64,000 bases of DNA, taken from assembly GCF_002865645.1 (NCBI RefSeq), contig NW_020194659.1, positions 314,688 to 378,687 on the forward strand. The letters run 5' to 3'. Both the position numbers and the translations under genes were made by a program. The notes beneath the pieces were generated by a model. It worked only from the letters and a program-made list of their open reading frames with translations, had not been told where the DNA came from and did not search any database. The DNA comes from Hyaloscypha bicolor E (Eukaryota > Ascomycota > Leotiomycetes > Helotiales > Hyaloscyphaceae). Every line of letters starts with the position of its first letter. The first letter of the stretch is position 1. Positions 1 to 21,029 of the stretch are shown here, piece after piece.

Positions 1-943
1 CGCAAGAAATGCTGGATTCCGTGCTCGAGAGCAGCAGGAAGAAGATCGCAGAGCTGAAGCGGCAGCATGAGCGACTGTTGCGTAGATACAGCAATTTGCA
101 GTGCGCGTATACGGATGTTAGGGAGAGGTTAGAGCAGAAAGAGTACACGATTCCTGATGAGCCGTTGTTGTGTGGTAGTGGCTTTGGACAAGGGGTAGAA
201 GGGAGGATAAGTCCTAGTCCGCCGAGCCCACAGGAGCCGAGGACTATGACCATGCAGGAACCGAGACCGCCGCAGCGGCCGGAGCAGAGGTATCGCAGAA
301 GAGCAGCACACAAAACTTCCGATCCAGAGACCTACGTGTACGAAGCTCCTACTACCAGCCCGCCGAACATTCCCTTGCCACCCAGGCCTGTAAGAATAGA
401 CACGAGCTCTACCTCTGGGGCCGTAAGAATAGACACGAACTCTACATCTGAGGCCGTGAGAATAGATACAAGCTCTACCTCTGGAGCCGTAAGTCCTGAA
501 GGCGGTTCGCGCAGTCCTGTAAGTCCGGTCGAAGGCATTGCGAGGGTTGGAACTGGTGGAATGGGCGGTGGTGCATTGGCGAGTTTGGGTGCCGGATATG
601 GAGGACACTTCCATGCGCCGCTGCCATTTAATCCGGGTCCGAGTGCGAGTATCGGGAATTTGGAGGGAGGGGAGGAGGGGGGAAAGAAGAAGATTGTGCC
701 GGGGAGTGAGGTGAGGATTTATGGTCGTGGTGAGCTCCATTCTTCCTCTTTAAATTATTTGAATTTGTATCAGGAGCGAGGCTAATCCAAACAGGTGGTC
801 CACAAAATATCGGCAAACTCCCAAAGGAGAAAAGGGACAGTAAAGGGAAGGAGAAAGAGGCTCCATCCCCTCAGAGTCCAGTTGCGGATCCGAAGAAAGA
901 AAAGAAGAGTGGGGGGTTGAGGGGGATTAGGGGATTTGTCTGA
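1..943 (+). CDS. 3' end of an unrecognised coiled-coil / low-complexity protein (5' partial)
   Basis: The reading frame is open from the left edge, so the gene starts outside the window. I join 1..729 with 795..943. The intron runs from GTGAGC to AACAG (65 bp), and the second exon stays in frame to TGA at 941-943. The first visible part (about 45 residues) is charged and helix-forming, with SSRKKIAELKRQHERLLRRY, and looks like a coiled coil. The rest is Pro/Ser/Gly rich and includes three back-to-back 11-residue repeats of the type VRIDTSSTSGA (about 390-488). The C-terminus is Lys/Gly rich. I do not recognise the family. Composition suggests a scaffold or regulatory protein, but no function can be assigned. 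The gene model is supported by frame continuity only. Confidence 0.6.
390..488 (+). repeat. 33-bp coding minisatellite, three units
   Basis: Three adjacent 33-bp units beginning GTAAGAATAGACACGA (the third begins GTGAGAATAGATACAA) encode VRIDTSSTSGA, VRIDTNSTSEA and VRIDTSSTSGA. The unit length is a multiple of three, so copy number can change without breaking the frame. Confidence 0.8.
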
Positions 944-1419: not shown

Positions 1420-2145
1420 GCGACGAGGTGATCGCTCAAGGTAGCATCAAACAGGGCCTCCATCCCAACAACCATAAACACCCTCCGGTCCCTAATAATA
1501 GCTCTCTCCAGCCATCTCCAATACCTCAACCAAGACCAGATTCAAGGTTTCTCCTTATGCCAATGGAGGGTGTTGTCAGGGATATGCCGCTCCATTCAGT
1601 AGGGGACGAGAACAAGAGCATTTAAAATCTAACGACTTGCGTCTCCATACACACAACTACTCTGAGCTCAACTACCAGCACAGAAGTCCTGGATCCACTT
1701 CCCAATCATGACATTGTACAGTTTGCCTGTCATGGATTTCAGACGCGCTCAACCCGTCTAAGTCACACCTGAATCTCAAGGATACGTGTCTAGCCGTTGA
1801 GCCGATCGAAGGCGGCCTCGGCCCAGTTTGCATCTTTCTGCCTGCCCCACCGCCTACTTCAGGGATCCGCATCTAGGTGATGAAGGTATCCACATTGCAA
1901 GCCATTTTCAGCTGGCTGGCTTTACACATGTTATTGGAATGCTATGGGAGACCGAAGATGAGACTTGTCAGTTTCTCACCAAGAAGTTCTATGAGCAACT
2001 GTTCGCGGGAGAACGCGAGTGGAGTGGAACTGGGGATGTCAACAAAGCACTTTATCACGCTGTTTCACTGCTATCTGCGGGTAGACAGTTGCTACTACTC
2101 TTGGCCCCATTTTTTTGTTTTGGGAGGCAGGATAATAGAGTATAA
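1420..2145 (+). pseudogene. Decayed CHAT-domain (caspase-like protease) gene fragment
   Basis: Pieces of a CHAT domain appear in order but in different frames. Around 1555-1620 there is a degenerate PLHSVGDENKSI, matching the usual LPGV..E segment. Around 1698-1740 there is LPNHDIVQFACHGFQ, which contains the family's catalytic His motif. From 1828 there is HLSACPTAYF, with the catalytic Cys motif, followed by DEGIHIASHFQLAGFTHVIGMLWETEDE and ALYHAV, which end the domain. The His block and the Cys block are in different frames, and stops lie between them, so this is a broken copy. In intact fungal proteins this domain usually follows TPR repeats. None are visible here. Confidence 0.75.
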
Positions 2146-3658: not shown

Positions 3659-5845
3659 ATGTCCCTGGTTCTTCTTCAAGCCATAATGTATTCTTTTTGG
3701 CTTTGGTGTACCTCTTTAATTGCTGCGGCGTGCATCCTATACGCTTGTAAGCGCTTTAACTCCAAAGCTTCATTGCCTAATTATCGATCCAAGTCACTTC
3801 GGAGAAGCGAGGGACTAAACAAAAATAAAACAAAGGCTAGACAGCATGGATCAGAACAAGCCGCCTCCGAACTGAACATGCTCAAGGAGCTGTACTTCAA
3901 ACTGCATAACCTGGAACACTTCTACGACAGTATATTGCCTACTGTCGCACCGAAATTGTGGGCTATGATGTCGGAAGCTATAGACCACGAAGTACAACGA
4001 AAAGGTGGTGGAATCTTGGATATCGAAACCTACTCGCGACAGAGGCTCGAGCAATTTCTGCAAGTGGAATATGATGCCTGCATGTGTAGGTGGGAGAAGT
4101 ACAATTTGAGACGGCAGGCTGGAGGCAACCGCAAGTTGTTCGTGGACCGCAAAGATGCCTCCAATTCTATTAGACGTCTCGCACCTTTAAAGCTTGTCGA
4201 CGGAGCGTGGCTGGCGCATATCGGTAAAATCTCTACTCCCCTTGCTCTGCGATCAGTAACGCAGAATGCATGGCAGATACTTTCGGAAGAACTTGGAGAT
4301 GGTGATCTCCGCAAGAACCATGTCCGCATCTACAGCGAGCTCGTTCACGAAACTAGCGGGGTATTCCTCGAGCCTCACTCACCGCTCTTTATCGACCAGT
4401 GTATTTCCGACATCCACGTGTGGAAAGCCGCGGTAGCTCAGCAGCTTCTCTCTATATTACCCGATAAATTCCTGCCGGAGATCCTAGGGTTCAACTTACA
4501 CTTCGAGAGCGTTGCCTTCGAAACGCTCATCACCTCCCGCGAGCTTGAGGAGCTTGGCTATAGCCCGTTATACTTCTTATTACATGTATCAATTGACAAT
4601 CCTCATTCGGGGCACTCAGCTATTGCACTGGAGACCGTGGCTAGGTATCTTGAATTTATTCAACGAGAATCGGGTACGAAAGAACTCCAACTTGCTTGGA
4701 ACCGAGTGCGAGCCGGCTACCTGCTTTCCCAGCACCTGAACACAGAAGTAAGTGAGACCCGACGGTTCCTGGCAACAGGTTTGAATCCGTGCGAAGAAGC
4801 GGTAATCCAGGTCGTAACTGGTAAAGCCCGAGCAGCGCAGAAGATACATTGCGGGAGCCGTGTCAGGGTCGGCGGCCACTCTATCAACCACTGGCTGGAC
4901 GAAGAACGTCTTCGTGAGCGTACGTGGCAGAGCCGATTTCTTCAGGCACTTAACAACACCGGTAGTCTAGTGCGGAAGGGTCGTAGCGCGGATAGCAAAC
5001 TGGTCAAAGAGATCAGTTGGGGCGGTAAAATGTTCGGTTCCTTCACGGACCTCGAAGTTATAGTAATAAAGCAGTGGATAGACGCACTGCCTTGGAAGCA
5101 CGGCGAGAGTTACTGGAGTTTCACGGGGTTATGCGCTGACGAAGTGGCATATGATCCGAGGACGGACAACCAATGCTGGATCAATGCGTTCTACCGCAAG
5201 ACGCCGCTTATTGAGCAAAGTCTGCGTGAGTCCAACGACAGCATATTCCCCTTCAACACAAATATCGACAGCATGATGGCTAAGCAAAGCCCGAACCTGA
5301 GCAAAATGCTCCCACTCTGGTTCGCGGGTCTCGGCCTTTTGGAGAACTTTGTCACTATACCTTCCAAAGTGGCAAACACCCGCAGCTGCGCTATACTCCG
5401 GGTGCTCAGGGCTCAACACGGATTTGGCAATGAGACTGGAGGCGTTGCCGGCTTAGACGAAGCCTTACGTACCGATCGGGTGGATTTGGTAGACATTGGT
5501 CTAGACTGGGTGGATAAAGCGGGACTGCAAAAACCAGAGCTCGTTGATGCAGTACTGCGGGATCCTGACGCTGCATTTGCACGCGAGATGGTCACTTTAG
5601 CTGTGCGGCCTGAGGGATATGCTGATGTATTAGTGGGTCTCAGTTGCGCCTTTGCGGAGTTGCATCTAGCGATGGTCCCGGTAGTATCGCCATCGCTTCA
5701 AGATGCTTTACAGCAGATAGCAATGAGAGAACAACGCGGCTTGGAGGGGTGGCTAGTCGATCTGCGAGGAAACAGTGCTGACTCCTCTATGGTATGCAAA
5801 GCCTATAGTGTAGGAAGGCGAGTGATTGCGTCTTGTTTTGATTGA
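3659..5845 (+). CDS. Membrane-anchored heme-oxygenase-like di-iron oxidase (iron-containing redox enzyme family)
   Basis: This is a single exon of 728 aa. I start at the first ATG in the frame (MSLVLLQAIMYSF). Residues about 5-31 form one hydrophobic segment followed by CKRFNSK, a likely N-terminal membrane anchor. The middle of the protein carries the HDO ligand pattern. There is a Glu/His helix with RIYSELVHE and EPHSPLF (about 222-242), then GFNLHFES (about 277-284), then YFLLHVSIDNPHSGHS (about 305-320), which supplies the H...D..H set. Relatives (UndA, BesC, SznF, PolF) bind two irons and use O2 for decarboxylation, C-C cleavage, N-oxygenation or azetidine formation on fatty-acid or amino-acid substrates. 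About 400 C-terminal residues extend beyond the core and contain LPLWFAGLGLLENFVTIPSK. Their role is unknown. It is the first gene of a six-gene block with amino-acid-handling enzymes, so an amino-acid-derived substrate is my inference. Confidence 0.8.
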   Translation: MSLVLLQAIMYSFWLWCTSLIAAACILYACKRFNSKASLPNYRSKSLRRSEGLNKNKTKARQHGSEQAASELNMLKELYFKLHNLEHFYDSILPTVAPKLWAMMSEAIDHEVQRKGGGILDIETYSRQRLEQFLQVEYDACMCRWEKYNLRRQAGGNRKLFVDRKDASNSIRRLAPLKLVDGAWLAHIGKISTPLALRSVTQNAWQILSEELGDGDLRKNHVRIYSELVHETSGVFLEPHSPLFIDQCISDIHVWKAAVAQQLLSILPDKFLPEILGFNLHFESVAFETLITSRELEELGYSPLYFLLHVSIDNPHSGHSAIALETVARYLEFIQRESGTKELQLAWNRVRAGYLLSQHLNTEVSETRRFLATGLNPCEEAVIQVVTGKARAAQKIHCGSRVRVGGHSINHWLDEERLRERTWQSRFLQALNNTGSLVRKGRSADSKLVKEISWGGKMFGSFTDLEVIVIKQWIDALPWKHGESYWSFTGLCADEVAYDPRTDNQCWINAFYRKTPLIEQSLRESNDSIFPFNTNIDSMMAKQSPNLSKMLPLWFAGLGLLENFVTIPSKVANTRSCAILRVLRAQHGFGNETGGVAGLDEALRTDRVDLVDIGLDWVDKAGLQKPELVDAVLRDPDAAFAREMVTLAVRPEGYADVLVGLSCAFAELHLAMVPVVSPSLQDALQQIAMREQRGLEGWLVDLRGNSADSSMVCKAYSVGRRVIASCFD

Positions 5846-6336
5846 TGTATCCTTCGGTCTGGTAGAAATCTTTTTCCATGTGCCTTTTTAATATCCAACA
5901 AACTTTGTAATTACTGTGATTCTTTATCGAGAACTAGATTTCTGTCGAGAGCTCAGAATAATACATGTGAAACGATATGAATGAAGCTGCTACTTAGCTA
6001 AAAGGCATGACACAGGTTTGAGTGAAGTCTTGGGTAGGGCTAAGGCTACGTAGACTCTAGCACGGCAGCGTAGTATCAAGTACAGGCGAGCGAGCCCTGA
6101 ATACTGAAAGCGGAGGTAAGACGAGGCAGACTTATGTGACACAAGATATTACTGCCCATTTTGGCTAAGCCCAGGAGCTAGATTATTACTAAAACCCACA
6201 GACTTTCCAAGGCTTCCCCGTTCATGTGACGTAAACTCCTTCCTGCTGTTAAACACAACCACGCTCGATGTCATGCTCTAGGCACATTACAGATCTGAAT
6301 GGTTAAACCAGTCTTTCTTCTTCACAGGATCATACA
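5846..6336. other. Intergenic between di-iron oxidase and ATP-grasp gene
   Basis: This is the 3' flank of the oxidase and the promoter of the glutathione-synthetase-like gene. I see no RNA gene, repeat or further coding region. Confidence 0.5.
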
Positions 6337-8063
6337 ATGGCAGACCTTAAATTGCTTCCTTATCCTCCGGATCTTGCTGCCGATCAACAAGAACAACTTA
6401 TCAATACTGTGACTGATTGGTTGATCGCACACGGGTTTTTTGCCCCCCGCAAATCAGGGACCGACAAGACCCAACCTACAATTCGCGTTCCTTCCTCCCT
6501 ATCTCTCATCCCTGTTACTCTTTTCCCCAGCTTGTTCCCGCGCACTTGCTTCCACGACGCCATAGAAATTCAGCCAGAGTTCAACAAGCTATATGCGGCT
6601 GTCGCTGCGGACGAAGACTGGCTTTCTGCTGTTATTCAAGATGAGTACGACATTTTCCGAGCTTAGAACCGTGTTTTGATGGAGCAGTACTCACCCTTTC
6701 CATATTCTAGGTTCGCAGACAGCGACGAGTTCATCAAGAAGCTTTGGAGTGTTCATCTCGCTGTGAAGAGCGAGGGCTATGTCCAGGCACGACCCCCTCC
6801 AGGACCGGTACGTATGAGTGCACAAACTGATGGATCGGGGAAGGATACAACTATCACTCTGGCTCGGTCCGACTATCTTCTGTCTACAGACCAGCTAGAG
6901 AATAGTCGCCCATTGACTATCAAACAAGTGGAGTTCAATGGAATCAGTTCATTTGGAGGCAGTGCTCATAGTATAGCGGAACTTCATAGGTAATACTGAA
7001 TTGTCATTCCCTGCCCCCGGAATCTGTGGCTAACTCAGGATTTAGTCACTTGTACAATATTGGAATGTCACAACCCAGTCAAGGTCTCAATGCTGATCAG
7101 TCATCTTTCCCGCCAAATCCTTCACTTAAAGGGCTTTGCGCTGGTCTGCTCGCAGCACACACAATTTATGGGGACCCGAAGAGCGGCTGTGCCACTAAAA
7201 TTGGCATTTTGCTCATCGCTCAACCTGTTGAGTGGAATATCTACGAACACCGACGGATCCAGTATTTTCTGTGGTCTCAAGATCCGGCGGTCCCAATCTA
7301 TAGTCTGCCTTTGTCATCTGTACTGGATAAGACTACGGTCACGGACTCTCGTCACCTTCTGTACACGCCAAATCCGGAAGCAGAGACCATTGAGATCTCC
7401 GTTGTTTTCTTCCGCGGTGGCCACGATGCAGAGGACTACACCTCTGCTATAGAGTGGGAGGCACGTCGACATCTTGAACGGTCCTTTGCCATCAAATGCC
7501 CGTCGATCCTCACCCAAATTGCTTGCACCAAGAAAGTCCAGCAACTCTTAGCAAAAGACTCGAACCTTAAGCGTTTTGTTTCCGACGCCTCTTCGCTCCG
7601 CCTGAAGGAGACTTTTATGGAAATGTATCCACTTGGTGCGCAGACAGCTGATGGACAGAAGGGCCGCCAACTTGCCCTCGACCCCAAATCGGCCTGTGGA
7701 TATGTCTTAAAACCACAGCGGGAGTGTGGCGGCCATAACATCTACGGTGAAGCCATTCCGGCCTACCTCAATACGCTGCCAGAATCCCAGTGGAGGTCCT
7801 ATATTCTCATGCGGCTGATCAAGCCGCCTTGTCTGAGGAACGTTATTCTAAGGAACGGTGAGCCCGCAACTGAGAGCATCATTAATGAACTCGGAGTTTA
7901 CGGTACTTGCATATGGCGGGCTACCCGGCAAGCAAACAATTTGGACATCATGTACAATGGAAACGCAGGTTGGTTGGTCAGAACGAAGAATCGAGCTCAT
8001 GCGGAAGGAGGCATTGGTGCTGGCTTTGGTAGTTTTGATAGTCTCTTCTTGGTTGATGATTGA
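6337..8063 (+). CDS. Glutathione-synthetase-like ATP-grasp ligase (eukaryotic GSS family, divergent paralogue)
   Basis: I join 6337..6644, 6711..6989 and 7046..8063 (534 aa; usual family length is about 470-500). The N-terminus (LLPYPPDL, IPVTLFPSLFPRTCFHDAIEIQ) and the substrate region (FIKKLWSVHLAVKSEGYVQ, ARSDYLL, KQVEFNGIS) follow eukaryotic GSS in order. So do the ATP-grasp region (YVLKPQRECGGHNIYGE, about 414-430; YILMRLIKPP) and the end (GWLVRTKNRAHAEGGIGAG). GSS joins gamma-glutamylcysteine and glycine using ATP. Three deviations suggest a changed substrate. The glycine triad EGGGNN reads ECGGHN. The glutathione loop NTI(S/A)xSFGG is one residue shorter (NGISSFGG). There is an extra 15-20 residue insert before ARSDYLL. 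It lies 0.5 kb from both flanking enzymes on the same strand. A housekeeping GSS is unlikely given these changes, but activity is untested. Confidence 0.85.
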
Positions 8064-8570
8064 GGTCTTTATGGTTTTTATCAGAGTAGCGTTGAATATT
8101 TGCATTTCATGAAAACATGATTCCAGAGGAGCCGCACATGTGGCTTGTCTCCCCCAGCACTTTAGAACTAATCAAGTGCCTCGCATGGCCACCCCTACTT
8201 ATAATGCATTTGCCGGCAAGGCTTGAGACCAACCCCCACGATTAGACACATTTCTGCTAAATATGGCCAATCTTGTTTCGTCCTCCGTCACCGTGGCTGG
8301 TGGCACCCATCCTTGACCAAGTTGAGCTGAAGCTGATACAGAGAGGTGATTGCTCATAATTTGACAGCCTGGAATTGATCACCTTTGTTAGTATGGCACC
8401 TGATAGGAGCCTTCCCGGTGTCGTCTTAAAATACCGAATCCTGTGGGTGGAGGCAGGAACAAACTGAACTTCTTATAAATTCCACAGAGGATTGCCAGGA
8501 TAGCACACGGCTTGTCCAAATAATCAGGGCATCTATTTTCACTTCTACAACCTGTTACCTCTGTTCCACA
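8064..8570. other. Intergenic, promoter of the TyrRS-like gene
   Basis: Nothing beyond flanking UTR and promoter sequence is seen. A CT-rich stretch with TTCTACAACCTG precedes the ATG at 8571, as is common for fungal transcription start regions. Confidence 0.4.
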
Positions 8571-9927
8571 ATGTCGGCAACACTCTCCCTCGAAGAAAGA
8601 TTGAACCTTGTCACCAGAGGGCAGAAATTGGTCAATCCTGGAGATATTGACTCCTTAGAGTCACTCCTGGCAACCACAAAGCGACCCAAGATTGCATGGG
8701 GTGGGTTATCCATTTCTGAAAAAGATATTGCATCTAAATTCTCCCAAGAAACAACTCCAACCGGAAAGCGTAATCATCGCTGCCACCTTGAGAACGTAGG
8801 ATGAGCTCGCTGAGGCCCATATAGCTCACGTGGGGTACTTTGTTCCCTTGGCCAAGCTTGCAGATTTCGTAAAGGCAGATCTTGAGGTATGGTTTTTCTT
8901 CTAATTTTCTAGGTAGATGTTTTCTTCTTCTGCTAATCCAATTGGGGCATCGAGGTGACTCTCTTCTACCTCGATGTCTATGGATTTCTAGTCAATTACA
9001 TCTATCCCATGGAAGTTGTTGAGAATCGCAGGAAATACTACCATCATTTAATGACGGCCGTGCTGCGATCCCTAGGGGTTGACCTGTCGAAGATTCGCTT
9101 CGTGGCCGAGTCGTCTTTTGCCTATCGCAAGGAATACTTCGTTGACGTTCTGAGGACTTGCGCGCTTATGACGCAGCAAGATGCAAAGGACACCTGCGAA
9201 GAGACCGCGGAGACAAAAATGCTCAGTCCTCTTCTGTGCTGTGTATATCAGTCTCTATCTGAGCAGTACTTGGACATTGACATTCAGTTTGGAGGCGAAG
9301 ATCAGGTGTGTAAGATTTGTTCCCAACAAACCTGCTATACTCAACTCTGTTTACCTTTAGCGTGGACTATTCATCCACTCAATCAAATACCTGCCTTTGC
9401 TTGGTTACAGGAAGCGCGAGCATCTCATGAATGCCATGGTCACGGGATTGCAAGGCGGGAAAATGTCCTCTTCGCACGCAGCAGAAACAAAGATTGAGTT
9501 TCTTGACGACCCCGAGACCGTTCAGAAGAAGATAAACCGGATGCCATGCGAGCCTGGGGATGTCCAAAGCACTGTAGTACTGCTCCTGCGAGACGTACTC
9601 CTCCCAATTAGTCAACAGAGAGTCGAATCGCTACAAGACTCCGGCACCTCGTGGGAATTGGATGGCAATAACAAACCCAGGCCTTTTATTACGGAAGATG
9701 CTCCGCAAGGAACTATTTTCAGTATACCTGCAGGATCTTGGGGCGATTCTCGGCATTACACATCCTTTGCTGACATTCAAAACGGCTTCGGGGAAGGGGA
9801 GATTAGTCCTGCGGCTCTGAAACTGGCTGTCACCAATGCTTTCAATAATCTACTGGGCAAAATTCGAGCAATCTACTCTGAAAGCAAGGAGTGGCAATTG
9901 GTTGACAAGCTAGCTTACCCAGATTAG
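8571..9927 (+). CDS. Tyrosyl-tRNA-synthetase-like class I adenylating enzyme with altered amino-acid pocket
   Basis: I join 8571..8769, 8825..8886, 8955..9305 and 9361..9927 (392 aa; 376 aa if the in-frame 48 bp at 8701-8748, which has GT...AG ends, is also an intron). The cytosolic TyrRS fold is clear. The HIGH-equivalent segment reads TTPTGKPHVGYFVPLAKLADF, the Rossmann core has QFGGEDQRGLFIHSIKYLP, and KMSSS is intact in LQGGKMSSSHAAETKIEFLDD. The C-terminal helical region (YTSFADIQNGF...NNLLGKIRAIY...LAYPD) is present. The residues that recognise tyrosine in known TyrRS (human Y39, Y166, D173) align with A42, C182 and S189. Only the Gln (human Q170, here Q186) is kept. H77 and D81 of the human enzyme align with Y96 and V100. 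ATP chemistry is probably retained while tyrosine binding is probably lost. It may activate another amino acid, load a tRNA as a donor, or be a resistance copy. Confidence 0.85.
8701..8748 (+). other. 48-bp in-frame segment with intron borders inside the TyrRS-like gene
   Basis: The segment runs GTGGGT...CCCAAG, has CTAAA about 12 bases before the end, is a multiple of three and has no stop. Removing it places W43 next to the TTPTGK motif, as in other TyrRS proteins, with one Gly changed to Glu. Keeping it adds 16 residues (GLSISEKDIASKFSQE) just before the ATP site. Confidence 0.55.
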
Positions 9928-10681
9928 ACATTGTCCTTCTGCCTCGTCTCAATGGGAGGCACCTTTAGTAGGAGAAGGAGATTTTGAAGCATCTCTTTGT
10001 CTTTTGACATAGCTGGCCAACTTTGGTTTTATTTCAATAATCTATTTCTTTTTGAGCGTGATAGCCCTGCTTCAGAGATTAAATGTTCACAATTGCCTAT
10101 AAATGCGAAATAATTGGCAATAAAGTCTACACAACCAGCATAAATCCCATGTAGAATATCGATCTTAAGGGGAGTTAGCTCTTTAAACATACAGCTGGTG
10201 GCGTATAATACGGCTGTTTAATTACAGAGCTCGACCACTTATTTGACACTGATTTCCTGTCCAAGTACACCGAGTAGCCTCCCCACGCCATTTTGATCCG
10301 TAATGCGTAGACCCCCACCGGCGCCTTGGGTGGATTTTCAATTAGCTAAAACGATCGCGTCAAAGGGCGATTCATCAGAGCCTCCCCCACTTCCCTGCCT
10401 CTGAAGGGGGCATCCACAAATGATGAGGGGTAGCAGATTAGAGTATCCAATAACACATCTAGCCCGTGGCTGCAGCAGTGAAGAACGCTTTACCACGACT
10501 GGAGTGCGGCTTGCATGTACGGGCACGAGGTAGAAATTGTCAAAAGAGATGACTTGGATTGAGGCCTCATCGCTGATCACTGATGCATCACTCTACAATT
10601 TTACTTTTCACAAACTCTCCTCACAGACCTAGGGGAACTCGTTCCAGGCACTTTCTCTTTTGCCCAGTTATCTAATCCACT
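9928..10681. other. Intergenic, 750 bp
   Basis: This is the 3' flank of the TyrRS-like gene and the promoter of the dioxygenase gene. An 80-codon minus-strand open frame (10338-10580) shows no family features and is not called. Confidence 0.4.
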
Positions 10682-11689
10682 ATGTCCACGATGGTATCAA
10701 CAGTGACACTGGAGAACGGGCTGCAGGTCCCCGTTGCGGAGCTGACCACCATTGACCTGGCTTTGCTCGAGGCGGGCAGCTCTACCGAGATCGAGAAGAT
10801 GGCGAAGGAGGCTAGGGATATCGGCTTCTTCTTTCTTGATCTGAAGAACAGTCCATCTGCGCAGAGAATTCTTGACAGTCTGCCCCTACTTTACGCTCGA
10901 AGTGAGGTTTATTTCGATCAGGACAAACAGGTGAAGCAGATGGACGCGAGATACGATCAGAGCCCTTCTCAGGACCGAGGGTATGTAGACACAAGCGGAC
11001 CACATCCTCGAGAAAACTCGAAGGGTTAAATTTAAATTACAGGTATAAGTCCAGTGAGTGCGATGAAACCTTTGAGGTAAGGCTTCTTTCCATATCAAGG
11101 TTCTGTACGGTTGAACGGATTGATGGTTGACTATGAGCCCTCCTCCAAGATGGCATTTGACGAGCTTGTCGTCAATGGAGGAAGCCTAAAACTTCCTGGT
11201 GTTTTGCAGGACATCCAAGCTTCGCTCGCCCAATTCTCTAATCTCTGTCACGCGGCATGTTTGACCATGCTCAATGGCCTATCAGAATCACTGCATGCGC
11301 AAGGTGCGGAGGGACTCGAGATGCATCACCGCCACGGACATCCCAGCGACAGCGGACTAAAACTCATCTACGAACCAAGCCTGGCGCGGGTAGCGGACGT
11401 GAAAGAGAATCGCCATACGGATAGCGGCACGCTGACGATGCTCTTCTACGAGGAATGGGGTCTTCATGTCAACTTAAAGGGCTCTGACGAGTGGGCCTTT
11501 GCTTCAGTCACTCGGGGCTCCGTCCTGGTCAACGTTGCGAACTCGCTGCAGCGGCTATCCGGTGGAACTTTCCACTCGCCGATTCACCGCGTGACGCAGC
11601 CGGGTGACGGATTCTCCAAACGCTACTATCTGTCTTACTTCTTGCGCCCCGAGGATGAGCTGAAAGCCGAGTGGGCAAGGACGTCCTAA
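10682..11689 (+). CDS. 2-oxoglutarate/Fe(II)-dependent oxygenase (isopenicillin-N-synthase-like)
   Basis: I join 10682..10980, 11043..11076 and 11138..11689 (294 aa). The N-terminal DIOX_N part contains VPVAELTTIDL and EARDIGFFFLDL. The C-terminal oxygenase domain carries the iron ligands HTDSGTLTMLF (His and Asp, HxD) and the distal His in FHSPIHRVTQP. The 2-oxoglutarate-binding Arg-x-Ser type segment is KRYYLSYFLRP. NVANSLQRLSGG is also typical of the fungal family. Such enzymes couple 2-oxoglutarate decarboxylation to hydroxylation, desaturation or ring closure of small molecules. The 34-bp middle exon is set by frame (DRGYKSSECDETFE), and the acceptor of the last intron is the least certain join. 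As the second non-heme iron oxygenase of the block, it is a plausible tailoring enzyme. The substrate is unknown. Confidence 0.85.
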
Positions 11690-12117
11690 ATCGGCTTGGC
11701 CTATACGTTCTGGTTAGTCTTTCAAGGCTGTTGGGGGGTTGCTGGCTGCTCAGTCGCTATTTTCACGAGTTCGATTAATACATGCTGAAAATCAATACTT
11801 ACCTGTAGACTTTTCTAGCCACGTATGAAACCTTACTCTATCTGTGAAGTTATTGAGTTGCATGGTTCTTATCAAGAGGTTGCCTTGAGAAATAGCGCTT
11901 GCCAACATGCCAAACTATCTGCACATGCACAAACCAGCTGATCGCTCTCTCATTTCCTCTGTGAAAAGCCTCACTTCAATAAGCAAGTTGGGAACTCAAG
12001 AACACCGTCAGTGGCTCTTTGAAACGAGCAGTACTCTTAAGACTCCTGTATTTGCTTTTTCCTCGCCAGCTGCTATAATTTCATGCCATGGAGCCAGTTC
12101 ATCATTTCTATGCCATT
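11690..12117. other. Intergenic between convergent genes
   Basis: This is the 3' region shared by the dioxygenase (plus) and the flavoprotein (minus). No supported coding sequence or repeat is seen. Confidence 0.45.
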
Positions 12118-12964
12118 CTATGAGGTTGCAGCTGCAACAGCCTTTTCTTTTCCATTCGAATTCTCCTCACTCACCCATTGGTTCAAGTACTCCGGAGCCT
12201 TGGGGACCTTGTTCGCTTGTGTCGGAACAGGCTCGCCCCACTGCAGCCACGAAGGCACGACGCCAGTCCAGACCTTAGCTGTCAGGGCATCGTCCTTCAA
12301 GTCCTTCCGATCCTCAATCGGCTCGCCGGTCCGAACCTTCGAACTAGCGGAGTGAATGCGGACGCGGAGGATGGACGTGCTGGTCATCTCGGTCTGGGTA
12401 GGTGGAACTCGAGAGTTCTCCCACCGTCCGCGGATAATGTTCTCCGTAATGGTCTCCATTGCCCACATCTTCTCCGCCGCGTCGGTGACGACGGTGGCAT
12501 ATCCGAACACGACAGCGGAGCGGTAGTTGCAGCTGTTGTGGAATGGGGTGAGCGACAGGACGAGCCCATCCAAGATCGAAGCCGAAATGGTGACGGGAAG
12601 TCCACGAGCGGCGTGCTCATCAGACTTCGGCAGCTTCATGAGACGCGCGGAAACGTAACCATGGATGTAGATATCGGGATCGGTGGTCTCGTCTGCGGAT
12701 GACTTTCCACCTGGGAAGGAAGCCGTACAGCCCAGCATGGGCAGGACAATGGGGAAGGGATCATCTTCAGGCTCGGCCGGGTTGAAGGCGACGTGGAGGA
12801 TCGGTGTTGCATCGACAATGCCATGGATCAATGCACGATCGTAGAACGCTTTTTCTGGCCGTCAGCTTCATAACGCAATTGGGATGTGGAGAGTCGTGCT
12901 TACCCCGGTTTCGCACTCGATTGACAGCATTCAAGGGTGTCTTCTCGTAGGTTGCACTCTCCAT
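12118..12964 (-). CDS. Pyridoxamine 5'-phosphate oxidase-like FMN-binding protein (Pyridox_ox_2 / NimA-like)
   Basis: On the minus strand I join 12964..12904 and 12854..12118 (265 aa). The start is the ATG giving MESATYEKTPLNAVNRV, a common start in this fungal family. Exon 2 continues KAFYDRALIHGIVDATPILHVAF, then an FMN-barrel-like core with DIYIHGYVSARLMKL, GLVLSLTPFHNSCNYRSAVVFGYA and a C-terminal KVWTGVVPSWLQWGEP. Members bind FMN in a split beta-barrel. Most fungal members have no proven reaction, and bacterial relatives reduce nitroimidazoles. It is convergent with the dioxygenase and divergent from the permease. Family members are widespread in fungi, so it may be a neighbour rather than a pathway enzyme. 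Confidence 0.8.
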
Positions 12965-13936
12965 GTTGGACAAGGGGAGTCGACTGGCGCCGAATTCAGA
13001 GGAGTGGTTGAGGTTGAAGCTGAGGAGGCAGAGCAGGTAGAGGAGGTATCAGATCCAATTCGGGGAGACTAGGGAGGAGGCCTGATGTGGGGAGATTTGG
13101 ACGTGAGGCGGGGTGCGCGAAGTATTTGATTGTGTTGTGTTGTGTTGTGTTGTGTTGCGTTTTTGCCTGCTAGTCATTCACCTCGCAGCAGCGAAGTCGG
13201 GGGTCGGCTCCTCTTCCCGTTTGCGTGTGGCCGCGTCGGGCCGAAATCGTTGTTTGAGTGACAGTACGTACCGCAACGCCCTTACCATAACCATCCCTAT
13301 TGTGCCTGTGCCTGTGCTCGTGCTCGTACGACGTCAGGAGGGGGGCATATCTGATTGGCGAGTCACGCCAGCCCCGCCGGCCCCGCCAACCCCGCCCCGC
13401 CCACATGTGAGGCTCTTCTGTTAGGGGCGGCCCCGCCAACAAGCTCACCGCTCCCACCGCGGAATCCGATCCGGCGACCAGCCGCTCGGCATCCTGGCGA
13501 GGCGTGCAAGAGCGCGGCCTGCGATAGGCTCTCGCGGATGTGTCTTCCTTAGCGAGGCGCGCTAGCTAAACTTATCACTCCGTGCACACCATCAATTGAT
13601 CATCATCATCTCGCCTAATTGTCTACTCTCCTTACTCCGTATCCACCGCACTCCTTATCATTATTCGTCTTATCGGCACCGTCTGACACGCCCGCCACCA
13701 GCCGAGGGGCAAGATTTATCGCACAACGTGATCCGAAGTTCTTCACCGTCAGCCGCTTATGTGCTTCACGGGGCCTTCATCCGATTTATGCAATGGGTGC
13801 CGACTGCAGCATGTAGGGCATTTCACGCGTCGAATATATCGAATACCTCGAAACTGCCAGTGGCGACGAGGCTTGGGATCTCCTGGCACGACACGGCTCT
13901 CTTGTGAGTGAGCCCAGACCGCTCAGTTGGCCGGCC
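12965..13936. promoter_or_regulatory. Divergent promoter region between flavoprotein and amino-acid permease
   Basis: About 970 bp separate the two divergent start codons. The region holds a TGTGT pentanucleotide tract, a GC-rich patch with repeated CCCCGCC blocks near 13368-13400, and CT-rich sequence closer to the permease. No supported open frame is present. Confidence 0.45.
13131..13160 (+). repeat. (TGTGT)n pentanucleotide microsatellite
   Basis: Five perfect TGTGT units are followed by a sixth, TGCGT, in the divergent promoter region. Confidence 0.85.
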
Positions 13937-15672
13937 ATGGACTCTGTCACGACACCGCTTCTCGCCGCCGACGAGGAGGCTCCAGCGCCGAGTGATGGCA
14001 AAGCAGAGGAAGACACAAGGAGGCACCTTGGCCTCTTCGACGGCGTGGCCCTGGTCCTTGGGCTCCAGATCGGGTCTGGAATCTTTTCCTCCCCCTCGCT
14101 CGTGCTTCGGAATACTGGGTCTGAGCCTGTAGCGCTCGCGGTCTGGTGCATTGCTGGTGGTCTGGCCTGGGCTTGTGCGGTTTGCTATACCGAGCTGGGC
14201 ACCCGCCTGCCCTTTAATGGAGGACCTCAAGAATACCTGTCCTATTGCTTCAGCGACGTCTATGGCTTCCTCGCCTCCTGGGCCTGTATTTTTACACTCA
14301 AGCCTTGTTCCGCAGCCATCCTGGCCTTGGTTGTCGCCGACTATGTTTGCGATGCATTGAGCCTCGCCAGGGGACCGTTTGATTACGTCCCGAAATTAAT
14401 TGCTGTTTCCATGATTACTCTTGTGACAGTGGTCAACTGCACGGGAAATAAACTAAGCAATATCGTTACAAAGAGCTTACTGGCATGTAAGATTTTTGGC
14501 GTTGCTTCTATCATAATCCTCGGATTCGCAGTTCTGATCGGCCGGCGTCTTTCACCGTCGGTCGTCTTGACGGAGCTCAAGTCTCCCCCACGACCAGGCT
14601 TGAGCAATTATACTGATGCCACATTATTAGCAATGTGGGCATATTCTGGATGGGAGGCGGTTTGTCTAGCCTCTATAGAAACTTGTCAGCAAGGGGCTAA
14701 CAATGATCTTAGCTGGCATTTGTCGGGGGAGAACTTAAGAACCCCAGCCGCAATACGGCTGTCGTCATTAATATATCTATGACTGTTGTGATAGTACTCT
14801 TTGTTCTTGCTAACATTGCCTATTTCTCTGCGTTGTTATTCGCAGAAATTATCCGCTCCTCTACTATCGGCTTGGTAGGATTTAACTCCAATCTACGTGT
14901 TCAGATTTCTACAATCACTCACGTTCGCTATAGACCTTCAGCCAACACTTTTTCGGGCGTGCCGGTGGCGCGCTGTACACCCTAGTCATCTGCCTTTCTT
15001 GTATAGGTACTCTCAACGTCAAGTTCTTCACCGCGAGTCGTTTGACCCAAGCGGCTGCCGAACGGCAGTTCTTGCCACCTGTTATTAGAACCATCAAACG
15101 TGTAAGCGCTGACCACGGTGACGAGCCATTGGAAGCAAACCCGTTGCGACGCATGCTTGAGGTCTTACGGCATCCAACACAGTTCGGAGATGGATTAATA
15201 CCACTGTGAGAACCAAAGTCCCCCCTTTTTTTTTTAATCTTAAGAGCTTGACTAATTCCAAAAAACAAACAAACAAGATCTGCTATTATATTCAACGCTC
15301 TCCTTGCGGATGCCTACATCCTGGTTGGTGATTTTGGCTCGCTGATTATATTTATTGGTAATTCTCCGGGAAAACATGGATTGTGGTGAAAATTTACTAA
15401 CTTCAAGTGTGCGTTATCTAGGAATCGTGGAGTATTCAATAGCGTGCATTACCATCGCCGGACTATTTACTCTTCGCCTGCGTCCGAGGCCACCAGAAGC
15501 GGACTCTGGAGGTGGGACATTCCGGGTCCCGTGGATAATTATTTTCGTTGCTTTGGCTGCCACCGCGCTTATTGTCTTCGTCTCGGTTGTCAGACATCCT
15601 TTTGCTGGCCTTGGGTTCGTATTCTTTTGCGGAGTGAGCACGGTTATATACACACGCATCATTCGAGTTTGA
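13937..15672 (+). CDS. Amino-acid permease, APC superfamily (LAT / methionine-permease-like)
   Basis: I join 13937..14659, 14713..14874, 14934..15205, 15278..15357 and 15422..15672 (495 aa). The start is the ATG of MDSVTTPLLAADEEAP. The first transmembrane segment has the APC signature GVALVLGLQIGSGIFSSPS. It is followed by CYTELGTRLPFNGGPQEYL and several hydrophobic helices (for example VVIVLFVLANIAYFSALLF and ALYTLVICLSCIGTLNVKFF). The last helices come from IVEYSIACITIAGLFTLRL onward. About 12 membrane segments are expected for the family. Such proteins exchange or import neutral amino acids at the plasma membrane or an internal membrane. Next to the biosynthetic block it could supply a precursor or export a product, which is inference. 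The join at 14659/14713 uses a GTTTGT donor and is the weakest. Confidence 0.85.
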
Positions 15673-16831: not shown

Positions 16832-16946
16832 TGTTGCGATGTTTTGGAGGTTGACGACTTGATTTTTCAGCTTACGCGGGGTAAGCACTCTATATATACA
16901 TCTGGTATATAAACTACAGTGTACTAGCGTACACTCAGTTCCAACA
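16832..16946 (-). repeat. Copia LTR, left copy (115 bp; 3' LTR in element orientation)
   Basis: It starts with TG and ends with CA and matches the right copy along its length, apart from a few transitions (for example GCTTACGCGGGG against GCTCACGCGGGA) and a 2-bp difference in a TA run. Confidence 0.9.
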
Positions 16947-17283
16947 CGCCCCTTACGCTATACACTGTGACCGTATAACGCCCCCAGAGGGTGTCTTTTG
17001 CCTGCTTAGCGCCCCTACGCTAATATACCCTCAAGTCTCTGCCCTTATACCCCCCAACCCCTAGCCCCAAGCTAGCCAAACACGCCCTTGTCTCTTGCCC
17101 TCCCTCAGCGAGGTTCCAAGGGAAACTGTCTTCCCGGGCCGGTGCTGCTTCCGCTCGTACTATCGCAGGTTATGAGGATAGGCTTTCGTGGCGACCGACC
17201 GACCGACCGACTGTGGTTCGCAATCGTCGCCCCTGAGTCGTACAATATAGCTCTCTCTCCTGCAAGAGCTATAAGGGAAGCCG

Positions 17284-19260
17284 TCAGTTGCAATACGCGC
17301 AGCGGTGAGCATTTGCTGCTCGCGCATTCCGGGCCCATGACCTGTTGCAATGTTTTGGAGGTTCTCCCTGATTAGGGGAATCAGGGTCCCCTGAATCAGT
17401 GTCCCCTGAATCGGAATCCAAAGCCCCTGTATCCACCACTATGGTATCCCCATAGTCCCCTAGAACGCTCCACCGGGGGTCAGGTGACGGGGAAATAGGG
17501 GCTGGAGAGTCACGTGTACCCCCTGAATGCCCTGTAATTACAGGAGCTTCAGGTGCTACAGGCTGTTCCATTATAGCTTCCATTGGGTCAAACGGGACTG
17601 TTTCCTCCCCAATAAGCTCCTCGTTCTAGTTCCATTCCAATCGCTCGTTTTCATGGAAAACAGGTGCAGTGGATACTATAATTTTCCCCTGTTCAGGCTC
17701 ATATTGTGATGGGGATTTGATTGTTATATGGATTTCGGACCATATATAGGCGTTGGATGCGTGGGTGGAGGTAAAGAGGGTAGGAAGCTAAATAAGTAGA
17801 AGTAATAATCTTAAGACTCTCAGTACCAGTAATGAAATAATACGAATGGTCAAAAATAAGGGCTCCGAAGGTTGATGTATTGGGAAGGCTAATCGTACGT
17901 ATGGATGGAAGTCTTATGTAACCCCCTAAACTAGCGCCAGCATGCCTGGGAAGCAGGGCACGTGACGGTAGTCACGGGACAAGAGAGAAAAAACCCCACC
18001 ACAATATAGCTTGTACTGCCTTGACGTAGGCATATAGCCTATAAGACAGGCCTTAATAGCCACATCGTCCATTTTCAAGCGAGTTTCCTTAGGGACGTGT
18101 GCGTACGCTACGCACCCGTATGCCCTAAGGTGCCCAATATTAGGGCGTTTCCCACTATAGGCTTCTTCTGGAGTCTTTCCATTAGGCCCTACAGGTGTCC
18201 GATTCCGTAAATAACAGGCTGTAATTACAGCTTCTCCCCAGAACTGTACAGGGAGCTTGGCGTCCAATAACATGGCCCTAGCCACTGATATTAAGCTCCG
18301 GTTCAGGCGTTCAGAAACCCCATTCTGCTCAGGGGTATAAATAGTGGTATACTCAAACTGTATACCATAGTTGTCCAGTAATAAAGCCCCTAAGGACTTA
18401 TATTCCGAGGCATTATCGCAGCGTACAGCCTTGATTTTATGCCTTGATTCCAGCTCTACTAGGGCCTTAAACTGCAAAAACACAGTTCTCAGCTGCTTCC
18501 TAGTTTTGGTGAGGTATACCCACGATTTACGGGTATAATCGTCCGTAAATATAAGCATATAGGTGTCCCCTTCTAGTATGGGTACACTATAGGGGCCCCA
18601 AAAATCGCTGTGGATCCGTTCCAGTAGAGTTGTAGCCCTCTCAGGGGCCTTCCGGTTCACTACCCGTACTGTTTTAGCCTTGATACAGGGCTCGCAGGGT
18701 TCCTGAAGAGCCCCAATAGGCTCTTTAAGCCCTGTAGAAACAGTGTGTTCCAGCTTTAGGCTCATGGGGCTCAAATGGCCGAAGCGGCGATGCCGGAGGC
18801 TAACTTGGTTTTCCGGTGCAGTGGTTGCTTTTAGCCCAATATCAGTGCCTTGTGGGATACTGTCCAGGGCGTACGCTCTCCCTAAGCGGCTAGCAACCCC
18901 TATTACTGCTCCCTGAAACTCAATTAAGAGCTTCTTTCCAGTGGAACCAGTAGTAGTACGTATAGTAATGCCCTTATCCTGGAGCTGCAGTACCGAAATT
19001 AAGCTCCCAGCGAGCTTAGGTACGTAAAGCACTCCAGTGAGCTTTACAGTTCGTACAGAGGCCCCCAGGGCCACCTGCAAAAGCACAGTACCCTCTGCAA
19101 TAGCCGGAATCCGGGCCCTATTTGCCGTAGTTACTAGTATAGGAGTGTCTAGCACCCTATACTTAGTAAAAGCCTCCCGTAAATAAGTCATGTAACGGGA
19201 GCTTCCAGAATCAATTACCTATAGCAGGTCGTTTCTGCTATAAGTAGGCTCTTCCAGAGC
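17284..19260 (-). pseudogene. Copia pol remnant: integrase with linker, no reverse transcriptase
   Basis: The longest open part (19191-17926, 421 codons) begins at the protease-like VIDSGSSRYMTYLREAF region. It then contains the integrase zinc region (HRRFGHLSPMSL...CEPCIKAK) and the catalytic core with D, D and E positions (HSDFWGPY, VRCDNASEYKS, YTPEQNGVSERLNR). It ends after LRAYGCVAYAHVPKE and a TAG stop. Further downstream, EPEQGKIIVSTAPVFHENE and GEETVPFDPMEAIMEQPV are recognisable linker pieces with another TAG. No RT motif follows. Confidence 0.85.
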
Positions 19261-19263
19261 CAT

Positions 19264-20175
19264 TCAACTGGTTTCAGCGCTACTAGCGTTCGCTATAGGC
19301 TTCTCAGGCCCTGGAGAGAGTCCTCTGCCTTCTCCAGGGGTTACTAAGGGCCCTGTACTAGGGCTCTTTTCCTGCTTTTCTTGCTTCTCTACCTTCTTGC
19401 TCTTGCAATCAGATTTCCTATGGCCTTGTTTACCACATTTGAAGCACTTCCCCTGAAATTTAGGGCTCTTTTCCCCTGTTTTAGCTAGTAAAACAGATTC
19501 CTTCAGGGCTTCTTTTGGTCCCATTCTCCGTTCGTGCTCACTGAAGCGAGCTACTATTGCACTATAATTAGTAGTAGTATCACTAATCTCTAGCTGCAAT
19601 ATCAGGGGAGCGAAGCGCTCATCCAGTGCCCTAATAGCCCCAAAAAGGATCGATATTTTGAGGGTTTCAGAGGGCTTTTCCGTAGGATCGATGATTCCGA
19701 TTTCGTACTATAAAGTACTCAATTCCGTGGCTACCACAGCAACAGTGGCATCCCGTTCCGGTGGCTTATAGCTAGTAAAAGCCTGAATTTTAGTACTAAG
19801 CTACTATATGCCCAGGGGGGCATATAAAGCTTTCAGTGCCTCCCATTGCTCCCTGGCCGTTCCAAGGAGTAATATATGCTGTAAGGCTCCCTGAGCACAT
19901 AAACTCATGATTATAGTGCTCGCCTTAGCGTCCTTCACCTCCGTACGATCACTGGAAGGCCCTAAGCCCTTAGGATCGCTCCCATCTCCAGAGCTTTGAG
20001 CCGCTGAACCCCCTGTAGAACCCGGTTCTACAGTAGTAGTTTCCACCCCTAGACTAACCACGTTCCATAGGCTTTGACCAATCAAAAGCCTACGTACCTG
20101 AACGCTCCAGGGCCTATAATTGGGCCCTGTAAGCCTGGCGATCCGGGGCTTTTCCACACTAAAGTCGTCTTCCAT
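19264..20175 (-). pseudogene. Copia gag remnant
   Basis: The likely start is MEDDFSVEKPRIARLTGPNY at 20175. The frame continues through RPWSVQVRRLLIGQSLW, a gag-like AREQWEALKALYAPLGI, two adjacent TAG stops, one later TAG, and then the zinc knuckle KCFKCGKQGHRKSDCKSK. It ends in TGA. All pieces are in one frame, so point nonsense mutations rather than indels disabled it. Confidence 0.85.
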
Positions 20176-20338
20176 AGTGTTCTCTAAAGGATATTTCCGG
20201 TAGGTGCAAGTGAGCCGATTCAGTAATTTATAGTGCGTAGATATAGGGCGTAGAGGTAGCTTCCGGTGCTCATAACCTGTTGCGATGTTTTGGAGGTTGA
20301 CGACTTGATTTTTCAGCTCACGCGGGATAAGCACTCTA

Positions 20339-21029
20339 TCCGTTCCGCTGCGGCCAGCTTTAATAGTCGGACTTGACGTCGCGCTAAAGGGGCCCTTCCC
20401 TTTAGTCGGGGAAAGCAAGTTGTCCCGGGAAAGCAAGATGTCCCGCACCAAATAAAATCCTTAATAACTTGAAACATTAACCTTTTTAAATAATTCTAAG
20501 TAATAGAATTAAAAATATAAGCCTTATAAACTAGATACGATTCTCTAAATTTTAAAAAAAGATATGGGTAGAGAGTTATTAAGGTTTTAATAATAAAATC
20601 GCGAGAAATACAAAAATTGTAAGAATTATTTGTTCGCGACCATTTCGCGAGTATTAGATCTATGACTTTTGCTTAATTATAAATTTTTATTCTTTCACTT
20701 AAAACTTTAGCCCTTAATTATGCGATAGGTAACTATAAGATCGCGAATAAAACGTATTAATTAGATTTTCTATAGCTAGTTCCTAATATTGTTTTTTAGA
20801 AGGCAAAAAAGGCTGGTACGGGACATCTTGCTTTCCCGGGACAACTTGCTTTCCCCGACTAAAGGGAAGGGCCCCTTTAGCGCGACGTCAAGTCCGACTA
20901 TTACATCTTACGTGATCACAAATTGTAGCGAACTAGAGGCCATAAATCAAAGATTTGGACAATATGATTCGCTGATCCAGGTCGCTTAAATGTGCACGGA
21001 CCATGTAAAGCTGGCCGCAGCGGAACGGA
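20339..21029. mobile_element. 691-bp TIR element with TA target duplication (Tc1/mariner-type, non-autonomous, decayed)
   Basis: Long terminal inverted repeats of about 110 bp begin TCCGTTCCGCTGCGGCCAG on the left. The right end is the exact reverse complement, apart from a later insertion. TA lies at both borders (20337-20338 and 21030-21031), and one TA remains at this place in the intact LTR. The inside (about 20455-20805) is very AT-rich with no coding potential, as after heavy RIP. The TA target suggests the Tc1/mariner superfamily, but no transposase is visible. Confidence 0.85.
20904..21005. mobile_element. 102-bp insertion inside the right TIR, flanked by TA
   Basis: The left TIR reads GCTTTAATAGTCGG without a break. 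In the right arm its complement is broken after CTATTA and resumes with AAGCTGG. The 102 bp between are flanked by TA on both sides (20902-20903 and 21006-21007). Its ends (CATCTTACGTG and the complement CATGGTCCGTG) are only imperfectly inverted, so it is a MITE-like insertion of unknown family. Confidence 0.75.

Follow-up and report, generated by a model that had tools for sequence, protein, structure and literature searches.

Why would a fungus keep relatives of two everyday ligases, a glutathione synthetase (GSS) and a tyrosyl-tRNA synthetase (TyrRS), side by side between two iron oxygenases? This arrangement lies in a block at positions 3659-15672 of the stretch of Hyaloscypha bicolor DNA that we analyzed (64,000 nucleotides, positions 314688-378687 of contig C58; hereafter, the window), and we searched the 82 Mb genome of 76 contigs for relatives of its genes, with all counts of genome matches given below being lower bounds. 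The evidence leads us to lean toward the view that the block is a small specialized-metabolism cluster free of nonribosomal peptide synthetase (NRPS) and polyketide synthase (PKS), with a core of four genes for a heme-oxygenase-like di-iron oxidase (HDO), a GSS-like ligase, a TyrRS-like protein and an oxygenase of the 2-oxoglutarate (2OG) type, in which the two ligases are recoded housekeeping enzymes. An amino-acid permease is a possible fifth member. The four core genes share one strand and are as follows (window positions):

3659..5845, plus strand: HDO-family oxidase; single exon, 728 aa, PF14518 (E 3.1e-26)
6337-6644, 6711-6989, 7046-8063 (exons), plus strand: GSS-like ATP-grasp ligase; 534 aa, PF03917 (E 8.6e-110) and PF03199
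8571-8700, 8749-8769, 8825-8886, 8955-9305, 9361-9927 (exons), plus strand: TyrRS-like class I synthetase paralogue; 376 aa, PF00579 (E 5.8e-32)
10682-10980, 11043-11076, 11150-11689 (exons), plus strand: 2OG/Fe(II)-superfamily oxygenase; 290 aa, PF03171 (E 2.7e-11)

With two further genes described below these make a block of six, which a first-pass annotation had marked as a natural-product cluster. Pfam profile searches and splicing found all six genes intact at their expected coordinates, with the families originally assigned to them and with uninterrupted frames, and the gaps between the first four (491 bp between HDO and GSS, 507 bp between GSS and TyrRS, 754 bp between TyrRS and 2OG) agree with the 0.5-0.75 kb on one strand that had been noted.

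Separate housekeeping copies of both ligases

Does the fungus depend on either window ligase for translation or for glutathione? Contig C70 encodes a TyrRS of the cytosolic type whose pocket is canonical; C57 and C5 carry further copies of TyrRS and TrpRS, which by eye read as bacterial-type and are probably mitochondrial. GSS genes were found on C2, in the window and on C45, and at each of the 30 sites inspected the C2 protein agrees with the majority. Because the genome thus has a separate TyrRS (C70) and a separate GSS (C2), neither window ligase should be required for housekeeping. Housekeeping orthology of the window proteins had been named as one check on the cluster proposal, and both proved to differ from those C70 and C2 copies.

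The TyrRS-like protein belongs to a recoded clade

All of the best 120 of 246 TyrRS relatives were examined, with residues numbered as in the human enzyme by counting on an alignment to 5thl. We split the rows by position 166, calling recoded the 26 with a letter other than tyrosine and leaving a remainder of 94 that includes one row gapped there; since position 166 defined the split, Y166 is not independent evidence. Organism names accompany 23 of the 26 recoded rows, and all of these are fungal. At other pocket positions the two groups separate almost completely. Tyrosine 39 is found in 93/93 unrecoded rows with a letter at that position versus 0/23 recoded rows, in which alanine, also the window residue, occurs 12 times. 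Likewise, D173 is present in 93/93 unrecoded rows versus none of the 26 recoded ones (S in 16, A in 6, G in 4; S in the window) and D81 in 93/93 versus 1/26, while position 77 is histidine in 93 of 94 unrecoded rows and tyrosine in all 26 recoded rows. Q188 is retained throughout (120/120), as is Q170 in 24 of the 26 recoded rows. The ATP motifs, which read PHVGY and KMSSS in the window, have also been kept in the recoded rows: the first His of HIGH is present in 22/22 with a letter there, the Gly in 20/23 (A in two, C in one), and KMSSS in 25/25 bar one S-to-A change.

What might such a pocket recognize? We take positions 39 and 173 of human TyrRS to correspond to 32 and 158 of the archaeal enzyme. 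In Methanocaldococcus jannaschii TyrRS, according to passages of a published account of engineered variants, Tyr32 and Asp158 bind the tyrosine hydroxyl, altering them is preferred for larger substrates, and variants carry Tyr32Gly/Ala and Asp158Ser/Ala (PMC9499402). Judged from the alignment, the recoded clade is thus one that keeps its ATP motifs and has lost both of the putative tyrosine-hydroxyl-reading residues. The amino acid that the window enzyme would adenylate is probably not tyrosine, and is likely an aromatic residue that is larger or O-substituted. The commonest recoded pocket form is A-W-[EV]-T-[TA]-P-T-G-K-P-H-V ... L-C-x-x-x-Q-[ST]-L-[SA]-E, from which several rows deviate, and this variety of pockets within the clade suggests several amino-acid specificities.

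Phylogeny and curated models set the same proteins apart. A maximum-likelihood tree was built from the window protein, the C70 protein (a long branch), all 26 recoded rows and 21 of the 94 unrecoded ones, and in it the 27 recoded rows, window included, fall on one side of a branch with support of 100/100. Against two curated TyrRS equivalog models the window protein scored 136.5 (cut-off 220) and 81.5 (cut-off 113.8), failing both, as did 3/3 other recoded proteins, while a 309-aa stretch of the C70 TyrRS passed both (233.7 and 188.4), as did 2/2 further controls. The gene model itself is supported by an independent homologue from another fungus, P0001: removal of the four introns yields AWETTPTGKPHVGY, which occurs unchanged, letter for letter, in that protein.

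Among the recoded paralogues, P0085, P0107 (Ophiocordyceps), P0104, P0111 (Aspergillus), P0108 (Sclerotinia), P0038, P0090 (Geoglossum) carry different pocket combinations, with T or C at position 166 and F, L, Q or A at position 39. Residue 44 of the window protein (codon 8700 + 8749-8750), equivalent to human G41, a position of a neuropathy mutation, is Glu, as it is in 7 of the 21 recoded rows with a letter there. Cyclodipeptide synthases have a TyrRS-like fold without the ATP motifs; the presence of HIGH and KMSKS motifs ruled out that identity for the window protein. ARAGORN (bacterial code) found no cognate or suppressor tRNA in the window.

The GSS-like ligase keeps catalytic residues and changes its pocket

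The GSS-like protein was compared with the best 120 of 712 relatives, of which P0121 and P0122 are window-type metagenome pieces (96% identical over 62% of the query and 85% over 63%, respectively) and the other 118, fungal where named, served as the comparison set. The window protein carries Q220H, N372H, A462G, V461I, Y270H, G369C, T147G and a one-residue deletion near 150, at sites that are nearly invariant in those 118 sequences (Q220 in 118, N372 in 118, A462 in 117, V461 in 117, Y270 in 115, G369 in 116 and T147 in 116), and every one of its changes in the region covered is also present in both P0121 and P0122. Retained alongside these changes are R125, S149, S151, E214, N216, R267 and R450 together with E144, N146, K305, K364, E368 and K452, the last six of which we take to be the catalytic and ATP residues of GSS. 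From passages of a structural study of the trypanosomal enzyme, R267, S151, E214 and N216 bind the gamma-glutamyl group, the A-loop stands beside the glycyl end, and the tyrosine equivalent to Y270 (which we equated by its spacing from R267) extends across the cysteinyl group (PMC2845819). Because the gamma-glutamyl contacts are kept while Y270 and the A-loop are changed, the window ligase would be expected still to use a gamma-glutamyl donor, with the cysteine and/or the glycine position altered.

In a GSS tree that does not resolve their place among the remaining GSSs, a stem 2.04 changes per column long leads to the window protein, P0121 and P0122, whose tips are shorter than 0.1; the long stem and short tips fit a burst of change followed by constraint, a pattern that sparse sampling could mimic. 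The third GSS paralogue, at C45:2335788-2337272, is intronless and carries S149C, S151A, E214N, Q220E, Y270L and a change of GG459-460 to MS; it also scores above the cut-off of the glutathione-synthase model TIGR01986 (363.4), and inspection of its surroundings by eye revealed no convincing cluster.

The two oxygenases recur as a pair

If the ligases supply the building blocks, are the oxygenases their partners? A protein search of the genome returned at least two HDO matches, the window protein and one on contig C33 (39% identical), which we aligned with 120 listed matches to give 122 rows. E274, E283, E295, H309 and D313 are present in 122/122 rows and E211, H221 and H319 in 121/122. HDOs are described, in passages of PMC13108848, as using a metal set of three histidines and three carboxylates, with which the conserved residues are compatible, the third carboxylate and the assignment of H319 being inferred. 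The hydrophobic N-terminus, judged by eye, is possibly a membrane anchor. A profile search of the PDB with the HDO gave no HDO or otherwise informative match.

The closest paralogue of the window's 2OG-type gene also lies on C33 (51% identical over the larger exon; the runner-up is 35%), 533 bp upstream of the C33 HDO and on the same strand (the gap is L025 3964-4496). The window and C33 genes have in common the motif RYYLSYFLRP and an intron that follows [ST]FE, and in both proteins the HxD...H triad is kept, by eye, as HTD...H. The RxS motif of this superfamily binds 2-oxoglutarate; its position reads R-Y-Y in the window enzyme (11621-11635) and in its C33 counterpart, and both may not use 2-oxoglutarate. 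By simple proportion, the chance of finding such a neighbor within 2 kb on either side in 82 Mb is about 5 in 100,000, and the combination of HDO and 2OG-type enzyme looks like a reused module.

The C33 locus (L025, C33:1385001-1395000, with flanks L024 and L026) is a second candidate locus, composed of an MFS-like piece, the 2OG-type gene and the HDO. Partial matches above their cut-offs to an AMP-binding ligase, a multicopper oxidase and a cupin (all three further upstream), an esterase and a sugar transporter lie within 20 kb, while the MFS-like piece is below its cut-off.

When 48 of the 122 HDO rows were placed in a quick tree, to be read with caution for long branches, two clades resulted: the window protein groups with P0241-P0247 and Trizodia P0251, and the C33 protein falls in a second, broad clade. 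P0241, which stands for seven ENA sequences (86,999-bp contig), is identical to the window HDO; therefore, the present organism or a close strain is also present in another dataset.

A possible pathway

How might such a cluster have arisen, and what could it make? We propose that TyrRS and GSS were duplicated, that the copies would have kept their ATP chemistry while their substrate pockets were recoded, and that an oxygenase pair was brought together with the two recoded ligases on C58. In the pathway so formed, the TyrRS-like enzyme would adenylate an amino acid other than tyrosine, the GSS-like enzyme would couple an amine to a donor of the gamma-glutamyl type with an altered cysteine and/or glycine position, and the HDO and 2OG-type enzyme would oxidize the building block or the peptide, to give a product that might be a modified gamma-glutamyl or aromatic short peptide. 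Amino-acid activation combined with amide ligation is plausible for the two ligases, whose substrates probably differ from those of the parent enzymes. A bolder version, which we offer as a long shot, is an NRPS-free tripeptide line in which the GSS-like enzyme would make a gamma-glutamyl tripeptide analogue, the recoded TyrRS would activate and transfer a non-tyrosine aromatic residue, and a membrane-anchored HDO and an oxygenase of the isopenicillin N synthase (IPNS) superfamily would produce a strained or rearranged product; the recoded clade, scattered among filamentous fungi, would then mark a wider hidden class of pathways.

If the proposed cluster is real, a metabolite pathway has been built around two everyday ligases in place of the usual core enzymes. 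In a full-text literature search, covering the titles and abstract openings listed, we did not find such a cluster or enzyme combination described; since subscription journals lie mostly outside its coverage, this does not show absence from print. The recoded pocket form would also be a handle for mining fungal genomes for synthetases with new amino-acid specificities.

Borders and neighboring genes

The remaining features of the block and its borders are as follows:

12118..12964, minus strand: PF12900 flavin-nucleotide-binding (FMN) protein; two exons, intron about 12849-12903, E 9.5e-25 (one exon searched)
13937-14659, 14713-14874, 14934-15205, 15278-15357, 15422-15672 (exons), plus strand: APC-family amino-acid permease; PF13520, E 2.7e-35 (386 residues searched)
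1801..2145, plus strand: CHAT-domain remnant at the left border; PF12770, E 2.2e-10, 114-aa piece
16832..20339, minus strand: copia-type retroelement at the right border; integrase, SH3 and BBD domains in the open reading frame (ORF) 17929-19191, outer limits set by a repeat pair, with approximate ends

The FMN gene follows the 2OG-type gene by 428 bp and precedes the permease by 972 bp. Because it lies on the opposite strand and has a comparable match on C62, its membership in the cluster is doubtful; two introns are possible in its splice model. The permease, whose nearest paralogue in the genome is 35% identical, has a 3' end chosen by eye among five splice combinations. A pseudogene reading was ruled out for both the GSS-like gene and the permease, in that a TAG at 6664 in the former falls within intron 6645-6710 and an apparent frame break at about 14740 in the latter is removed by intron 14660-14712.

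Both flanks had been described before as decayed or mobile. The CHAT gene on the left is indeed a remnant, though a short one, and on the right a 62-bp direct repeat, 97% identical (16832-16893 and 20278-20339), brackets the copia-type integrase ORF on the minus strand, beyond which a peroxin gene lies at 21229. The absence of a standard PKS or NRPS core also stood up, with none of the 39 condensation-domain matches and none of the 58 ketosynthase matches in the genome falling on C58. No Rfam family reached its gathering score in the window. A 33-bp tandem repeat of 3.3 copies occupies window positions 385-493 within ORF 9-785.

Alternative explanations

Is the block a pathway, or did its genes merely come to rest together? 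It could be a chance neighborhood, in which neofunctionalized duplicates from unrelated pathways gathered in a transposon-bordered stretch and in which the HDO and 2OG-type enzyme may work as a pair, the GSS-like and TyrRS-like genes being passengers; we consider this unlikely, yet it must be taken seriously, since several observations that weigh against a cluster speak for it. No 7- to 10-base word is common to all four upstream regions, a weak test given that shuffles average 0.45 such 7-mers; among the genome profile matches, the C33 pair of HDO and 2OG-type genes has no adjoining TyrRS or GSS match; and the divergent GSS on C45 has, by eye, no obvious cluster of its own. In addition, the contigs that carry the recoded TyrRS and an HDO-family protein differ in length in both Geoglossum simile (267,391 vs 43,983) and G. 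umbratile (149,832 vs 423,659), so that the two genes are not clustered in either species, although the HDOs of these fungi fall in the broad clade and not in that of the window. Other fungi say less: in Xylona heveae the recoded TyrRS and one of two HDOs are on contigs of equal size (3,318,606), which is uninformative on adjacency, and in Orbilia brochopaga and O. oligospora the lengths of the TyrRS and HDO contigs differ, yet the records apparently come from different assemblies. What chance does not readily provide is four genes on one strand with such short gaps, an HDO and a 2OG-type gene that enclose both ligases, and the same combination of kept catalysis and changed pocket in both ligases alike.

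A different doubt concerns the GSS-like protein itself, which passes the TIGR01986 model (378.8 vs a cut-off of 329.8) and, with its gamma-glutamyl-binding residues kept, might still make glutathione-like products. Could it be that it makes glutathione or a homoglutathione-type tripeptide, and that the role of the block lies in redox or stress metabolism and not in making a secreted natural product? The retained binders of the gamma-glutamyl and glycyl-carboxylate groups (R267, S151, E214, N216 and R450, with roles as given in passages of PMC2845819) would suit this, as would the presence of homoglutathione synthetase among the solved relatives, but an ordinary GSS is present on C2, Y270 and the A-loop residues V461-A462 are altered, and the recoded TyrRS and the oxygenases would be left unexplained, which makes it improbable in our view. 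More improbable still, in our view, is a role of the TyrRS-like gene in self-resistance, as a duplicate that would protect against a TyrRS inhibitor produced by the same cluster. Resistant duplicates of housekeeping enzymes are indeed often clustered with the pathway concerned, and passages of PMC6331615 describe a search strategy for aminoacyl-tRNA synthetases (aaRSs) built on this, but a resistant TyrRS must use tyrosine, whereas none of the recoded rows with a letter at positions 39 and 173 retains Y39 or D173 and the window protein scores below the TyrRS cut-offs. The cluster of two recoded ligases and two oxygenases is thus the reading that we prefer, and the original call is a sound candidate: paralogy of the ligases, their recoded sites and the second HDO and 2OG-type pair have strengthened it for those four genes, while it is weaker for the FMN gene, whose membership is doubtful, and for the permease, which is only a possible member.

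Comparison with known systems

Which known systems does the proposed cluster resemble? The GSS-like ligase shares its fold family and catalytic residues with eukaryotic GSS and plant homoglutathione synthetase, and its eight solved relatives include 1m0t, 2hgs and the homoglutathione synthetase 3kaj. In homoglutathione synthetase the A-loop sets the choice between glycine and beta-alanine; the window ligase differs from these enzymes at Q220, Y270, G369, N372 and the A-loop. Solved "glutathione synthetase-like effectors" are also listed as relatives (by name only), so GSS relatives with altered roles exist.

The PF03171 family of the 2OG-type enzyme also contains IPNS. Penicillin logic, in which aminoadipyl-cysteinyl-valine (ACV) is followed by IPNS, is a natural comparison, and its engineered NRPS-free version likewise joins an ATP-grasp ligase to an oxygenase, with the authors stressing, in passages of their report, that ACV resembles glutathione (PMC13338154). 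That NRPS-free route is an engineered one, however, and the window shows no sign of a cysteine-containing tripeptide or of ring closure.

For the TyrRS-like protein there are both natural and artificial parallels. SbzA, the IleRS-like aminoacyl transferase of the Streptomyces SB-203208 cluster, is, according to passages of PMC6331615, an aaRS paralogue with HIGH/KMSKS in a natural-product cluster whose housekeeping copy is separate. SbzA is bacterial, of the class Ia IleRS type and tRNA-dependent; the window protein is a fungal TyrRS paralogue in which the tyrosine-reading residues have been replaced. MshC, the CysRS-like enzyme of mycothiol synthesis, is related to class I aaRSs and couples an amino acid with a small amine; it differs in being a CysRS relative, not a TyrRS paralogue, and in belonging to an actinobacterial thiol pathway, and we know of no GSS-like or HDO partners for it. 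Engineered M. jannaschii TyrRS variants resemble the window protein in that both hydroxyl-reading residues, Tyr32 and Asp158, are replaced (passages of PMC9499402), but they are laboratory products, whereas the changes described here are natural and clade-wide. The recoded clade would thus be a natural counterpart of laboratory orthogonal synthetases, with the same two hydroxyl-reading residues altered by evolution. As a whole, the block would seem to work most like those pathways in which an aaRS paralogue, such as SbzA or MshC, employs its amino acid for something other than translation; here a glutathione-type ligase and two iron oxygenases would act alongside it.

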